NCBI RefSeq assembly: GCF_030063445.1
Contig: NZ_JASITD010000008.1
Coordinates: 1-64,000, forward strand
From: Hymenobacter sp. H14-R3
GTDB taxonomy: Bacteria; Bacteroidota; Bacteroidia; Cytophagales; Hymenobacteraceae
Reading direction: 5' to 3'
Length of the DNA: 64,000 nucleotides
The first letter of the stretch is position 1. Every line of letters begins with the position of its first letter. This document shows positions 4,062 through 45,676 of this stretch, piece after piece. Below the pieces are notes generated by a model. It made no database searches. It worked only from the letters and a program-made list of their open reading frames with translations, and was not told the origin of the DNA. Position numbers and translations under genes: made by a program.

Positions 4062-4374
4062 TAACGCACACTAGCTTTTGGCGTGGAGGACGCAGCTCTA
4101 TTAGTGCACCAGCGGCAAAGTGAGAGACAGGTAGCACTCATGCTGAGGCTGTTAGCGAGCCTATGATTAACTTTTTAACCGATATATCAACTAATTTCGT
4201 TATCCCTAACTACCCTCAAAAAACGATAATTACTTGCTAGTCGAGTCTTTTTGCGTTTTGCGAGAATTTCTTATTAGTTTATATATACCCACTATTGATA
4301 GGGGAAAAATAAGCCAGGGCCAAAAAAGAAAATAAAACCAACCCGAAACAGGCCAAAACAGCAGCGTACATACA

Positions 4375-5572: not shown

Positions 5573-6652
5573 TCAACGCCCTTGTGCTTGCCCCTGGCGC
5601 GACGACTCGCGTACGAACAGCTCGGGTTGCAGCACCACCTGGCGCTGGGTGAGGGGCGCATCGGGCGCGACGGCCAGCTCCAGAAACAGGCGCACGGCGG
5701 CCTGGCCCATTTCCTCGCAGCGCTGGTCTACGGAGGTGAGCTGGGGCTCGGTGATGGCCGTGAAGCCCTCGTTGCTGAAGCCGGCCAGGGCAACATCCTG
5801 CGGCACGCGGATGCGCTGACCTTTAAGCACTTGCAGGGCCCCGAGAATGGCCGAGTCGCCGGCGGCAAACACGGCGTCCACGGGGTTGGGCAGGGTTAGC
5901 AGCTGGCGCATGGCGTGGGCCCCGTCCTCGGTGGTCATGTCGGAAATGATAATCAGCTCCTCGTCGGGGGCGATGCCGAAGGCGGCCAGCGCATCGAGGT
6001 AGCCCTGGCGGCGGTGCTGGTAGATGTTGAGGTGCGGCGGGCCCGAGAGGTGCGCAATGCGGCGGCAGCCCTGCTCCAGCAGGTGGTGCGTAACCTGAAA
6101 CGCACCTTCGCGGTCGTTGAGCACCACGGAGTTAACCAGCTCGGTGGCCGGCGTGCGGTCAAAAAACACCAGCGGCACGCCCCGGCTGCGCACCTTGTCG
6201 AAGTGGTGGTAATCGAGGGTGTTGCGGGCCACCGACACCAGTACGCCCGCCACCTGGGCGTTGAGCAGCGTTTCGACGTTGCGGCGCTCCAGCTGCACAT
6301 CTTCGTGCGACTGGCACACGATAACGCTGAAGCCGGCCTTGCTGGCGGCCTGCTCAATGCCCTGAATAACAGAGGGAAAGAACTTACCTTCGATGTAGGG
6401 CACCACCACACCCAGCAGCCGGCTCTGGCCCTTGCGCAGAGCGGCGGCGAGGTGGTTGGGCTGGTAGTTGAGCTTCTTGGCCAGCTTGAGCACGCGCTGT
6501 TTGGTAGCCGCCCCAATGCTGTGGTGGTCGCTGAGCGCGCGCGAAACGGTGGTCATGGACACGCCCAGCTCGCGGGCCAGGTCGGCCATCGAAACGGCGG
6601 CGGGGGAAGCGCCGGGCGCTTGCTTTTTCGGGGGAGTCATGGGGGGCAGCAT
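5573..6652 (-). CDS. LacI-family transcriptional regulator
   Basis: 359-aa DNA-binding repressor of the LacI/GalR type. The helix-turn-helix is at about residues 20-45 (SMADLARELGVSMTTVSRAL), followed by the hinge motif LNYQPNHLAAALR. A periplasmic-binding-protein-like sugar-sensing domain follows from about 75 to 345. It is transcribed away from the transaldolase gene, and its upstream region carries an exact TAAATTTG promoter box. A sugar or sugar phosphate from the local pentose or gluconate pathway is a reasonable ligand, but nothing in the sequence fixes it. Possible targets are its own promoter region and the palindrome in front of the arabinose operon. Confidence 0.92.
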   Translation of the reverse strand: MLPPMTPPKKQAPGASPAAVSMADLARELGVSMTTVSRALSDHHSIGAATKQRVLKLAKKLNYQPNHLAAALRKGQSRLLGVVVPYIEGKFFPSVIQGIEQAASKAGFSVIVCQSHEDVQLERRNVETLLNAQVAGVLVSVARNTLDYHHFDKVRSRGVPLVFFDRTPATELVNSVVLNDREGAFQVTHHLLEQGCRRIAHLSGPPHLNIYQHRRQGYLDALAAFGIAPDEELIIISDMTTEDGAHAMRQLLTLPNPVDAVFAAGDSAILGALQVLKGQRIRVPQDVALAGFSNEGFTAITEPQLTSVDQRCEEMGQAAVRLFLELAVAPDAPLTQRQVVLQPELFVRESSRQGQAQGR

Positions 6653-40666: not shown

Positions 40667-41347
40667 ATGAAAATTCTCCTTGTCGAAGACGAGCCCTCGG
40701 TGGCCGCATTCCTGCACCAGGGCCTCACTGAGCAGGACTACACCGTGGACCTGGCCGCCGATGGCCTGCTGGGCCTGCACCGCGCCCAAAGCACGCAGTA
40801 CGACTGCCTGATTCTGGACCAGATGCTGCCCGGCCTCAGCGGCCTGGAGGTGTGCCGCCAGGTGCGCGCCCACGACCCCGGCGTGCCCATTCTCATGCTT
40901 ACGGCGCTGGGCGAGACGGATGATAAAATCCGGGGCCTCGACGCTGGAGCCGACGATTATTTGGTTAAGCCCTTTTCTTTCAGCGAGTTGCTGGCCCGCA
41001 TCCGGGCCTTGGTGCGGCGGCGCACCGAAGCCCCCGCCCCCGCCGCCGTGCTGCGCCTGGCCGACCTCAGCCTCGACCCCGCCACCAAGCGCGTGGAGCG
41101 CGCCGGCCAGCCCGTGCAGCTCACGGCCCGCGAGTTTGCCCTGCTCGAATACCTGCTGCGCCACCAAGGCCACGTGGTGAGCCGCGCCGATTTGCTGGAG
41201 CACGTCTGGGACTTGAGCTTTGATACCGGCTCCAACGTTATCGACGTGTATATCAATTTTTTACGCAAGAAGCTGGATAAGGGCTTCGAGCCCAAGCTTA
41301 TTCATACGCTGGTGGGCATGGGCTACGCGCTGCGAATAAATGGGTGA
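40667..41347 (+). CDS. OmpR/PhoB-type response regulator
   Basis: 226 aa. The receiver domain has acidic residues at E7-D8-E9, the phospho-acceptor D51 (LILDQMLPGLSG) and K101 (DDYLVKPFSFSELL). A winged-helix DNA-binding domain follows from about 128 (ARLEFALLEYLL-like, written AREFALLEYLLRHQGHVVSR; LEHVWDLSFDTGSNVIDVYI). The kinase gene starts 93 bases downstream. Four 11-bp direct repeats stand before the sulP gene that follows the pair. They are the likely binding site, since OmpR/PhoB proteins bind such repeats. Confidence 0.95.
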   Translation: MKILLVEDEPSVAAFLHQGLTEQDYTVDLAADGLLGLHRAQSTQYDCLILDQMLPGLSGLEVCRQVRAHDPGVPILMLTALGETDDKIRGLDAGADDYLVKPFSFSELLARIRALVRRRTEAPAPAAVLRLADLSLDPATKRVERAGQPVQLTAREFALLEYLLRHQGHVVSRADLLEHVWDLSFDTGSNVIDVYINFLRKKLDKGFEPKLIHTLVGMGYALRING

Positions 41348-41440: not shown

Positions 41441-42841
41441 ATGTCCATTCGCCTGCGGCTGGCGGCCCAGTTTGGGGCCATTCTGGTAATTACGCTGGTG
41501 CTGTTTGCACTGGCCATTTATTTTGTGACGCAACGGGCTCGGCACGAAGAATTTACGCAAAGCCTGTTTAAGCGGGCGATGGTGGTGGGCCATGCCTATG
41601 CCGATGGCCAGGCGCGGCCCGATGCCGACCACCAGGCCTCGTACCGGCAATATTTGCGCCAGCTCTACCGCACGCTGCCCGCCGAGGAAGGCCGGGTGTA
41701 CAATGCGGCCGGCCAGCTGGTATTCCGGGAGGGCCAGCGCCCACCCACTACCACCCTGCCCGCCGCTTGGCTGGCCGAGGTGCGCCGCCAGGGCCGCGCC
41801 GTGCTGGAGCCCGAGGCCAACTACCACGAAACGGTGGGCCTGCTCTACCACGATGCGCGCCTGGGCCCGCTGGTGGTAGTGGCCGCGTCCGTGGATGAGG
41901 ACGGCCGCCGCCAGCTGCACGGCCTGCGCCAAGTGCTGGCGGGGGGCCTGCTGGCGGCGGGCCTGGTAATGAGCGTGGGGGCCTGGCTGCTGGCCGGGCA
42001 GGCCCTGCGCCCCCTGCGCCGCATGGTGAGCGAGGTCGATGGTATTACGGCTACCGACCTCAGCCACCGCCTCACCCAGGCTCAGGGCCAGGCCGATGAG
42101 CTGGGCCACCTGGGGCAGCGCTTCAACCGCCTGCTCGACCGACTCGAATCGGCGTTTGTGGGGCAGCGCACCTTTGTGCGCGATGCCTCGCACGAGCTGC
42201 GCACGCCCCTCACCGCCCTCATTGGCGAGCTGGAAGTGGCGCTGCTACCCGCCGAGCGCCCGACCGCCGACTACCGCCGCACCCTGCAAAGCACCCTCGA
42301 CGCGGCCCGCCAGCTCAGCAGCCTCACCAACGGCCTGCTGCAAATAGCCCGCGCCTCGGGCGATGCCTCGCAGGTAACCATGGCCCCCGTGCGGGTAGAT
42401 GAGCTGCTGCTACAAGCCCACGAGCAGATACTGCGCCGCTACCCCACCTGCCGCGTCGATTTAGAGCTGGGTGACGAAAGCATGCCCGATGTGCGCGGCA
42501 ACGAGGCGCTGCTGCTGGCCGCCATTCTCAATGTGCTCGACAATGCCTGCAAGTACTCGGCCGGGGCCACCGCGCCGGTGCTGGCCACGCTGCTGCCCCT
42601 GGCCGGCCGCCTGCGCCTGCTGGTGCAGGACTACGGCGCCGGCCTTAGCCCCGCCGACCTGGAGCAGGTGTTTGTGCCGTTTTTTCGGGCGGCCTCGGTG
42701 CGGGGGCTGCCGGGCCACGGCATTGGGCTACCCCTCACGGCCCAGATAATGGCCCTGCACGGCGGTGTGGTGCGCGTGGCCAGCGAGCCCGGCCAGGGCA
42801 CCCAGGTGCGGCTGGAATGGCCTACCATTACCGGGGCCTAA
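41441..42841 (+). CDS. Sensor histidine kinase with HAMP domain
   Basis: 466-aa inner-membrane kinase. Membrane helices lie at about 12-29 and 165-186 around a periplasmic sensor region of some 135 residues. HAMP follows (RPLRRMVSEVDGITATDLSH), then the phospho-acceptor H251 in VRDASHELRTPLTALIGELE. The ATP-binding domain has the N box (NVLDNACKYS), the G1-type DYGAGLS and the G2-type GHGIGLPLT. It is the partner of the preceding regulator. The ligand is unknown. The regulated neighbours suggest a link to bicarbonate, pH or anion supply. Confidence 0.94.
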   Translation: MSIRLRLAAQFGAILVITLVLFALAIYFVTQRARHEEFTQSLFKRAMVVGHAYADGQARPDADHQASYRQYLRQLYRTLPAEEGRVYNAAGQLVFREGQRPPTTTLPAAWLAEVRRQGRAVLEPEANYHETVGLLYHDARLGPLVVVAASVDEDGRRQLHGLRQVLAGGLLAAGLVMSVGAWLLAGQALRPLRRMVSEVDGITATDLSHRLTQAQGQADELGHLGQRFNRLLDRLESAFVGQRTFVRDASHELRTPLTALIGELEVALLPAERPTADYRRTLQSTLDAARQLSSLTNGLLQIARASGDASQVTMAPVRVDELLLQAHEQILRRYPTCRVDLELGDESMPDVRGNEALLLAAILNVLDNACKYSAGATAPVLATLLPLAGRLRLLVQDYGAGLSPADLEQVFVPFFRAASVRGLPGHGIGLPLTAQIMALHGGVVRVASEPGQGTQVRLEWPTITGA

Positions 42842-42967: not shown

Positions 42968-43025
42968 CTTTAATTTCCTTTTAACTTCACTTTAACTTCA
43001 TTTTAATCAGGCGGCGGTAATCTTG
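42968..43025 (+). promoter_or_regulatory. Four tandem 11-bp repeats and promoter before the SulP gene
   Basis: CTTTAATTTCC, TTTTAACTTCA, CTTTAACTTCA and TTTTAATCAGG follow each other without gaps at 42968-42978, 42979-42989, 42990-43000 and 43001-43011. The consensus is YTTTAAYTTCA. A near-consensus -7 box TAATCTTG stands at 43018-43025. The 11-bp spacing is one helical turn, as in binding sites of OmpR/PhoB-type regulators, and such a regulator is encoded just upstream. Confidence 0.75.
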
Positions 43026-43097
43026 TAGAAGCAAGCCTTGGCCCGTGCATTTTGCACACGTGAGCCGGGGCTTCTGCAACTCTATTTTATCCCTTTT

Positions 43098-44768
43098 ATG
43101 TCCCAAGTAAGTTCTTTCCCCGCGCGCACCGGTACGCCCGTTGTGCCCATCGCGAGGATTGCTCCCTCCCCGCCTATGCCCACGCCACCTCCTGCGCCCG
43201 CGGCGGGATTATTTAGCACCATCGGGCAGGATGCGCCGGCAGGGCTGGTGGTGTTTTTGGTGGCGCTGCCGCTGTGCCTGGGCATTTCGCTGGCGTCGGG
43301 TGCGCCGCTGCTGGCGGGGCTGATATCGGGCATTGTGGGGGGGCTGCTGGTGAGCGTGCTCAGCGGCTCGGCGGTGAGCGTGAGCGGGCCGGCGGCGGGC
43401 CTCACAGTAATTATGCTATCGGCCATTGCTACGCTGGGCTCGTGGCCGGCGGTGCTGGCGGCCACGGTGGTGGCGGGCGTTATCCAGCTGCTGCTGGGCG
43501 TGGCGCGGGCGGGCATTATTGCGCTGTATTTTCCGGCGGCCGTTATTCGGGGCATGTTGGCAGCCATTGGTATCATTTTGATAATGAAGCAGATACCCCA
43601 CTTTCTAGGGGCTGACACGGACTACTTCGAGGACATGGATTTTTTGCAGTTCAATGGCCTGAACACCTTCTCGGCCATTGGCGCGGCGGCCAAGGGCCTG
43701 AGCCCCGGCTCAGTGCTAGTGGGCGCGGTATCGCTGGGCCTGCTGCTGCTCTGGGATACGGCGCCCGTGCGCCGGCAGCCCTGGGCGCGGCTGGTGCCGG
43801 GCGCGCTGGTGGCGGTGCTGGTGGCGGTGGGCCTCAACCAGCTGCTGCGCACTGCGGCCCCAGACTGGCAGGTGCGCCCCGAGCACCTGGTGAAGCTGCC
43901 GGTGCTGTCGTCGCTGGGCCAGCTCGCGGGGGTCATGACGTTTCCGGATTTTAACGCCCTGCGCAACCCCGCCACCTACGGCGTGGCCTTTACCATTGCC
44001 ATCGTGGCCTCGCTCGAAACGCTGCTGAGCGTGGAAGCCGTGGACAACCTCGACCCCCAGAAGCGCCACACCCCCACCAACCGCGAGCTGATGGCCCAGG
44101 GGGCCGGCAACCTGGTGAGCGGCCTGCTGGGCGGGCTGCCCCTCACGGCGGTTATCGTGCGCTCGTCGGCCAATATTGCGGCCGGCGGCCGGAGCAAGCT
44201 CGCGGCTTTCATCCACGGTATTCTACTGCTAACGAGCCTGTTATTTCTAGGCTCGGTACTGAATTTGATTCCGCTGGCGGCGCTGGCGGCGGTGCTGCTG
44301 CTGGTGGGCTTCAAGCTGACCAAGCCGGCGCTCTACCGGCAGCAGTGGCGGCTGGGCTGGGCGCAGTTTGGGCCGTTTATCATCACCATTGTGGCCGTGC
44401 TCTTCACCGATTTGCTCAAGGGCGTGAGCATCGGGCTGGTTATCGGCTTCTTCTTCATCTTGAAGGACAATGCCAAGGCCGGCTCGTACCTGCGGCGCAA
44501 CAGCGCGGCCGGTGAGGAGGAGGAAGCAGCAGGTGCCCTGCTGCACCTGCACCTGCCCGAGCACGTGTCGTTTCTCAACAAAGCCAGCATCGTGACCACC
44601 CTGGAGCAGCTGCCCACCGGCAGCCGCGTGCTGCTCGACGGCACCCGCTCCGACGTTATCGACCACGACGTGCTGGAGGCCATTGAGGCCTTCCGGCAGG
44701 CGGCCCCGGCCCGGGGCATCGACCTGGAGCTGCGGGGCATTGCGCCGGTAGCCCTGCTGGGCCACTAG
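43098..44768 (+). CDS. SulP-family inorganic anion transporter
   Basis: 556-aa inner-membrane transporter of the SLC26/SulP type. After a Pro-rich N-terminal tail come about a dozen membrane segments, with the conserved early block FLVALPLCLGISLASGAPLL and the segment SVSGPAAGLTVIM. A C-terminal STAS-like domain (about 475-556, LPEHVSFLNKASIVTTLEQL, GTRSDVIDHDVLEAIEAF) lies in the cytoplasm. SulP proteins carry sulfate, bicarbonate or other anions. The carbonic anhydrase gene next door favours bicarbonate. ATG 43098 is chosen over the upstream 43038. It is preceded by the 11-bp repeats. Confidence 0.9.
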   Translation: MSQVSSFPARTGTPVVPIARIAPSPPMPTPPPAPAAGLFSTIGQDAPAGLVVFLVALPLCLGISLASGAPLLAGLISGIVGGLLVSVLSGSAVSVSGPAAGLTVIMLSAIATLGSWPAVLAATVVAGVIQLLLGVARAGIIALYFPAAVIRGMLAAIGIILIMKQIPHFLGADTDYFEDMDFLQFNGLNTFSAIGAAAKGLSPGSVLVGAVSLGLLLLWDTAPVRRQPWARLVPGALVAVLVAVGLNQLLRTAAPDWQVRPEHLVKLPVLSSLGQLAGVMTFPDFNALRNPATYGVAFTIAIVASLETLLSVEAVDNLDPQKRHTPTNRELMAQGAGNLVSGLLGGLPLTAVIVRSSANIAAGGRSKLAAFIHGILLLTSLLFLGSVLNLIPLAALAAVLLLVGFKLTKPALYRQQWRLGWAQFGPFIITIVAVLFTDLLKGVSIGLVIGFFFILKDNAKAGSYLRRNSAAGEEEEAAGALLHLHLPEHVSFLNKASIVTTLEQLPTGSRVLLDGTRSDVIDHDVLEAIEAFRQAAPARGIDLELRGIAPVALLGH

Positions 44769-44899: not shown

Positions 44900-45676
44900 A
44901 TGAGCGCTCCTTCAACCAACAACCAAGCTGCCAACCACTCGGGCGGCGTGCAGGAAATCTTAGCCAACAACCGCTACTGGGTGGCCGATAAAAAAGCCAC
45001 CGACCCCGAGTTTTTTCAGCGCCTGGCCAACGGCCAGCAGCCGCGCTACCTGTTCATTGGCTGCTCCGATTCGCGAGTGCCGGCCTCGGGCATCACGGGC
45101 ACCGGGCCGGGCGAGATGTTTGTGCACCGCAACATTGCCAACATGGTGGTACCCAACGATATGAACCTGCTCAGCGTGCTGCAATATGCAGTGGAAGTGC
45201 TGGGTGTGCAGGACATTATGGTGGTGGGCCACTACGGCTGCGGCGGCGTGGCGGCGGCCGCCAGCAACAAGCAGTATGGCCTGATTGACAACTGGTTGGT
45301 AAACATCCGCGACGTAGTGCGCCTGCACGAAACCGAGCTGCTGCGCATCCAGGACAGTGCGCAGCGCATGCGCCGCCTCGTGGAGCTCAACGTGACCGAG
45401 CAGGTGCGTAACCTGGCCAAAACCAACATCATCCAGAACGCCATGCGCGGCGACAACCCGCCCCGCCTGCACGGCCTCGTGTATGACATTGCCGATGGCG
45501 TGCTCAAAGACCTGCACGTGAACAGCGAGGGCGAAATGAACCGCCTGGCCCACATCTACGGCACGGAGGCTGAAGCCCTTGCGGACGACGCTACCGCAGC
45601 TGCCGAGCCCAGCCAGTACGACGACTCGCAGCACGAGGCCAACCAAGTAGCGGCCAATGAGCTGGCTACAGCATAA
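44900..45676 (+). CDS. Beta-class carbonic anhydrase
   Basis: 258-aa cytoplasmic zinc enzyme interconverting CO2 and bicarbonate. The zinc ligands are C55, H111 and C114, with the D57-R59 dyad in IGCSDSRVPA and the second motif VVGHYGCGGV. GEMFVHRNIANMV lies between them. The last 40 residues (after EALADD) are an extra Ala/Glu/Gln-rich tail. It sits behind the SulP transporter and the two-component system, which together look like a bicarbonate uptake and hydration unit. A strong terminator closes the group. Confidence 0.95.
   Translation: MSAPSTNNQAANHSGGVQEILANNRYWVADKKATDPEFFQRLANGQQPRYLFIGCSDSRVPASGITGTGPGEMFVHRNIANMVVPNDMNLLSVLQYAVEVLGVQDIMVVGHYGCGGVAAAASNKQYGLIDNWLVNIRDVVRLHETELLRIQDSAQRMRRLVELNVTEQVRNLAKTNIIQNAMRGDNPPRLHGLVYDIADGVLKDLHVNSEGEMNRLAHIYGTEAEALADDATAAAEPSQYDDSQHEANQVAANELATA

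Follow-up and report, generated by a model that had tools for sequence, protein, structure and literature searches.

Four direct-repeat hexamers at a Hymenobacter SulP promoter as a probable operator of the neighbouring two-component regulator

The array of four hexamers that precedes the SulP transporter gene of Hymenobacter sp. H14-R3 is, judging from its sequence and conservation, very probably the site of the response regulator encoded upstream, with two regulator dimers predicted to activate the SulP gene and probably the carbonic anhydrase gene as well. Within the window (the whole 64,000-nucleotide stretch analysed), the array is situated between the end of the histidine kinase gene (42841) and the start of the SulP gene (43101). 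That it serves as a docking site for the regulator is almost certain, since across the family it occurs about once per genome, lies at the SulP promoter and is missing from the sampled genomes that lack the regulator. An earlier note on this DNA had proposed the repeats as a candidate target site of the upstream regulator, and both their conservation and their absence where the regulator is absent support this proposal. Its further wording, that the regulator would be meeting "its own" site, is borne out for a downstream target promoter but not for autoregulation, as nothing beyond background was found when arrays were sought upstream of the regulator gene.

Positions 42968–43011 of the window read CTTTAATTTCC TTTTAACTTCA CTTTAACTTCA TTTTAATCAGG, and the conserved core of this region is the hexamer YTTAAY, present four times with an exact 11-bp periodicity (Table 1). 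In an alignment of the 73 arrays recovered from the genus, TTAA is invariant in hexamers 2–4 and shows one substitution in hexamer 1, position 1 of hexamer 4 is a C in 86% of the loci, and the 5-bp linkers between hexamers are mostly variable. The number of repeats and their exact spacing stand as first described. What had been called perfect helical phase is a constant 11-bp step that comes close to, and does not exactly equal, one turn, and the repeats end 6 nt rather than seven bases before the −7 box when counted from the last 11-bp unit (10 nt from the last hexamer).

Table 1. Coordinates of the array, its promoter box and the flanking genes in the window.
Feature	Coordinates	Strand	Remarks
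Response regulator, OmpR/PhoB family, CusR-like	40667..41347	+	Pfam Response_reg and Trans_reg_C; predicted array binder
Sensor histidine kinase	41441..42841	+	Two TM segments (read from the sequence), HAMP, HisKA, HATPase_c
Hexamer 1, TTTAAT	42969..42974	+	About −61 to −56; sequence, conserved in relatives
Hexamer 2, TTTAAC	42980..42985	+	About −50 to −45; TTAA core invariant in 73 loci
Hexamer 3, TTTAAC	42991..42996	+	About −39 to −34, where a −33/−35 element would lie; TTAA invariant in 73 loci
Hexamer 4, TTTAAT	43002..43007	+	About −28 to −23; CTTAAY in most relatives
−7 box, TAATCTTG	43018..43025	+	One mismatch to the Bacteroidota consensus TAnnTTTG; fixed distance in 73 loci
SulP-family anion transporter	43101..44768	+	Pfam Sulfate_transp, E=1.6e-57, 195.4 bits (cut-off 23.2)
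Beta-class carbonic anhydrase	44900..45676	+	Pfam Pro_CA, E=6.2e-51, 173.2 bits (cut-off 25.7)

With respect to rarity, an array of three YTTAAY hexamers occurs at a single place in the 5.26-Mb genome of this strain (as two overlapping matches), where hexamer frequency predicts approximately 1e-3 triple and 5e-7 quadruple arrays per genome by chance. No array was present in 6 Mb of order-2 Markov sequence or in 20,000 simulated intergenic regions, and an origin by chance or low complexity was rejected on the strength of the genome pattern search and these simulations. Two hexamers followed by a correctly spaced −7 box gave one exact match in the genome, the SulP promoter itself, and one further two-hexamer match with a single mismatch was seen on contig C44. 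Genome-wide searches with the three-hexamer pattern and with two hexamers plus the −7 box revealed no wider regulon in this genome, no plasmid copies of the array promoter were found, and no separate array beyond background precedes the carbonic anhydrase gene where SulP is present.

The motif TAnnTTTG is the −7 element of Bacteroidota, placed from −12 to −5 (PMC9723704), and the box downstream of the array predicts a transcription start near 43030. It begins 10 nt after hexamer 4 and ends about 75 nt before the SulP gene. At the same distance from the 73 genus arrays the box profile is T97 A99 nn C75 T99 T97 G100, and the 10-nt step to TAnnnTTG is found in most of these loci, a few being off by one repeat or one nucleotide. 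Both in the genus loci and in other genera the array thus sits upstream of the core box at a constant helical phase. No −33 TTG element is recognizable at the expected place in the SulP promoter. In the 5′ leader of SulP (43027–43076), AGAAGC can pair with GCTTCT around a GC-rich loop; a search of this 5′ UTR against Rfam returned no match.

The claim that an OmpR/PhoB-type regulator is encoded upstream is upheld by Pfam, which identifies both a receiver and a winged-helix Trans_reg_C domain. The regulator, whose recognition helix is TGSNVIDVYINFLRKK, has its nearest named relative in Hymenobacter latericoloratus (83%). Its best NCBIfam model is cztR_silR_copR (TIGR01387), with 254.2 bits against a cut-off of 279.2, and it likewise falls below the cut-offs of the PmrA equivalog (168.7 of 330 bits), PhoB (211 of 296) and Bacteroides PhoB (164.5 of 270). 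The kinase is closest to the curated CusS-like heavy-metal kinases, at a score below the cut-off, and its periplasmic sensor of about 130 residues, with no domain recognized by Pfam, contains conserved residues L79, P80, E82, F95, G98, Y136, S150 and D152. The nearest solved relatives of the transporter are 5da0 ("Sulphate transporter") and 6ki1, and its score against the NCBIfam BicA equivalog (121.2 bits) is far below the cut-off of 880. Carbonic anhydrase lies directly 3′ of SulP in most loci of the family; metal-efflux genes are absent from the module, in which SulP and carbonic anhydrase are the conserved neighbours.

Conservation was assessed in 81 genomes of the genus, from which 60 SulP loci of other genomes were read; regulator orthologues (at least 74% identical) are clearly separated from paralogues (at most 65%). 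All 58 loci from other genomes in which the kinase precedes a full SulP gene carry an array matching at least 23 of the 24 positions of four YTTAAY hexamers, which with the window gives 59 of 59 such loci in the genus. The two SulP genes found in genomes without the two-component system (G033 and G071) are accompanied by neither kinase nor array. Across the genus, the array is present in 73 of 77 genomes with the two-component system and in none of the four without it (G021, G033, G036 and G071; Fisher p=4e-5, phylogeny ignored), these four perhaps representing few independent events and including one assembly, G036, that is 82% complete. Almost all positive genomes contain the four-hexamer pattern a single time, and a reversed control pattern had no matches in the genus. 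Absence of the repeats from relatives with the same gene order, which the earlier note had named as grounds for abandoning its proposal, was not what we observed: the array is kept in the 58 other loci of the genus and in five further genera. G038 also has a run of six TTTAAY hexamers, each 11 bp from the next, at a distance from its SulP locus (L210, about 6272–6339, minus strand). In several genomes (G010, G032, G041, G062 and others) there is an additional SulP homologue, about 50% identical, whose reading frame frequently spans 800–850 residues and may include another, fused domain such as carbonic anhydrase; none of these places matched the array pattern.

Gene losses and relocations within the genus provide natural experiments. 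Four genomes retain the two-component system without a full array (G012, with three hexamers left, G040, G065 and G066), and none of them has an intact SulP gene. Loss of SulP usually leaves the array in place, in many cases ahead of carbonic anhydrase (G049, G061, G057, G058, G020 and G005), and at two pseudogenized SulP loci the array has decayed, by one repeat in G012 and by a broken hexamer in G025. When an insertion of about 2 kb separates the kinase from the array and SulP (L115), the array stays with SulP, and in G140 the array, SulP and carbonic anhydrase are found together with no two-component system adjacent, a regulator homologue being encoded on another contig. Other loci are split between regulator and kinase, by about 2–4 kb of other DNA (L124, L134, L135, L136, L138 and L150) or by about 26 kb (G007), and in all of these kinase, array and SulP stay together.

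A separate set of four loci, L203, L204 and L206 (G026, G059 and G060) and L222 (G009), has lost both SulP and carbonic anhydrase, and here the array and −7 box are intact or nearly so beside the kinase. About 270 nt downstream, three of the four share a stretch of about 60 nt that is almost perfectly conserved amid divergent surroundings and contains two strong hairpins, the second of them terminator-like (GCTGTCGGCTACC...GGTGGCTTTTTGG). This stretch was not found in other genomes of the genus and is either a candidate small RNA expressed from the array promoter or a terminator that has been left behind.

Beyond the genus, the order regulator, kinase, array, SulP and carbonic anhydrase was read, with few exceptions, across six genera of the family, our own included. 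The strict pattern of array, 10 nt and TAnnnTTG is found in four of these six, and the other two (g4 and g6) have a slightly degenerate −7 box, in which the TA is affected. The recognition helix is nearly invariant among the family orthologues, whose regulators are only 63–67% identical to that of the window. More divergent regulators outside the family (L002–L080) had no array close by, and among 391 genomes of the order the strict pattern with a full TTTG matched once outside the family. This match, in G290 from another family (L306), lies at 4092 on the minus strand, 94 nt before a gene for a SulP-like protein of 729 residues; no two-component system lies beside it, and a regulator of 56% identity is encoded on another contig. 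In genus g2 (L278, L280, L283 and L285), a further array with −7 box occurs far from the SulP-linked two-component system, 76–103 nt before a gene for a secreted protein of 142–159 residues, the one member tested matching the Peptidase_S74 (endosialidase chaperone) domain. This extra array may be an additional target in trans or the site of a related regulator.

In terms of mechanism, we propose that the phosphorylated regulator would bind the four half-sites head-to-tail as two dimers (about −61 to −23 relative to the predicted start), take the place of the missing −33 contact and recruit RNA polymerase by way of the constant 10-nt interval before the −7 box. SulP would in this way be switched on, and probably the carbonic anhydrase gene behind it too. 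By analogy with PhoP and PmrA, four half-sites would correspond to a tandem pair of dimers, of which the one nearer the promoter box would substitute for the −33 element, and an invariant TTAA at a fixed 10 nt from TAnnnTTG is what may be expected of activators that contact RNA polymerase. This fixed geometry favours activation, short of proving it; physical binding, the number of dimers, the choice of activation over repression and the co-transcription of carbonic anhydrase are all features that we infer.

The same regulator could instead repress SulP by covering the promoter until a signal brings relief, and the array does span the −33 region and approach the −7 box, where repressors also bind. 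The exact 10-nt distance in most of the 73 loci and the lack of a −33 TTG nonetheless fit a weak promoter in need of an activator, and hexamer repeats of PhoP placed 12 nt upstream of the −10 element activate only at integral helical turns (PMC3335776), all of which makes repression quite unlikely. Use of the array by another protein, with its linkage to the two-component system being incidental, is very unlikely. The recognition helix of the closest paralogous regulator, which is also CusR-like and 61–65% identical, is very similar, so that cross-binding is possible, and the second array before the S74-domain protein gene of genus g2, being far from the two-component system, could likewise be read in favour of a paralogue or an unrelated factor. 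Against this, G033 and G071 keep both the paralogue and SulP while lacking the two-component system and the array, and no three-hexamer array lies near the paralogue in the genome of our strain.

Blocks rich in A/T at near-helical spacing can bend DNA, and the array consists of such blocks, which raises the question of whether it is a protein site at all or simply a phased promoter region with intrinsic curvature or UP-like character, or a product of chance. We consider this extremely unlikely: the genome search and simulations exclude chance, each block has TTAA at its centre, and the TpA step within it forms no A-tract bends, TTAA is fixed between freely varying linkers, and presence of the array depends on the two-component system.

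As for what the system senses and supplies, the pairing of SulP with carbonic anhydrase suggests bicarbonate transport, a substrate that can be put forward only by inference because the BicA model is so far from its cut-off. A copper signal is weakened by the conserved sensor residues, which bear no resemblance to a metal site of the His/Cys type, and our best guess is inorganic carbon, pH or another anion. The two-component system, apparently a single-target one from our pattern searches, could tentatively be viewed as dedicated to inorganic-carbon supply in heterotrophic Bacteroidota, through bicarbonate uptake by SulP and a beta carbonic anhydrase, with the periplasmic domain sensing CO2/bicarbonate or pH and with the operator–promoter driving a small structured RNA or other output once SulP and carbonic anhydrase are lost; we regard this broader picture as possible rather than probable. 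To our knowledge, the operators of Bacteroidota two-component regulators are poorly characterized, and our literature search returned no paper on Hymenobacter two-component operators or on two-component control of SulP or carbonic anhydrase. The present set of regulator, operator and target has a precise motif (YTTAAY-N5 four times, N10, TAnnnTTG) that is kept through the family, with gene losses and relocations serving as unusually clean natural controls. It points to regulated expression of SulP and carbonic anhydrase in heterotrophs, and the fixed array could become a part for inducible promoters.

Among known systems, PhoP of Salmonella binds hexamer direct repeats with a 5-nt spacer as a head-to-tail dimer, and its box activates from 12 nt upstream of the −10 hexamer in place of a −35 element, with a second upstream box enhancing activation (PMC3335776). 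The array shares with it same-orientation hexamers, 5-nt spacers and a position upstream of the core box, and differs in its hexamer (YTTAAY against (T/G)GTTTA) and in having a single target and a constant layout of four hexamers, whereas PhoP acts globally, through varied architectures. In sequence the closer match is PmrA/BasR, with half-sites CTTAAT/CTTAAG five bp apart (PMC3973317), also given as YTTAAK (PMC10927774): the hexamer is nearly the same and the spacing identical. PmrA/BasR is nevertheless a proteobacterial system with two half-sites rather than four, and it acts on lipid A genes in place of a SulP and carbonic anhydrase module. The closest protein family of the regulator and kinase is CusR/CopR/CzcR (TIGR01387), from which the pair departs in scoring below the family cut-offs and in having no metal-efflux genes in its module. 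Sites of CusR are inverted repeats. The module shares with SulP bicarbonate transporters (BicA and the SulP–carbonic anhydrase pairs and fusions) the adjacency of genes for SulP and carbonic anhydrase, although its SulP scores far below the BicA cut-off. Overall, the array appears from its sequence to resemble most the direct-repeat operators of the OmpR/PhoB family, of the kind represented by the PhoP and PmrA boxes.
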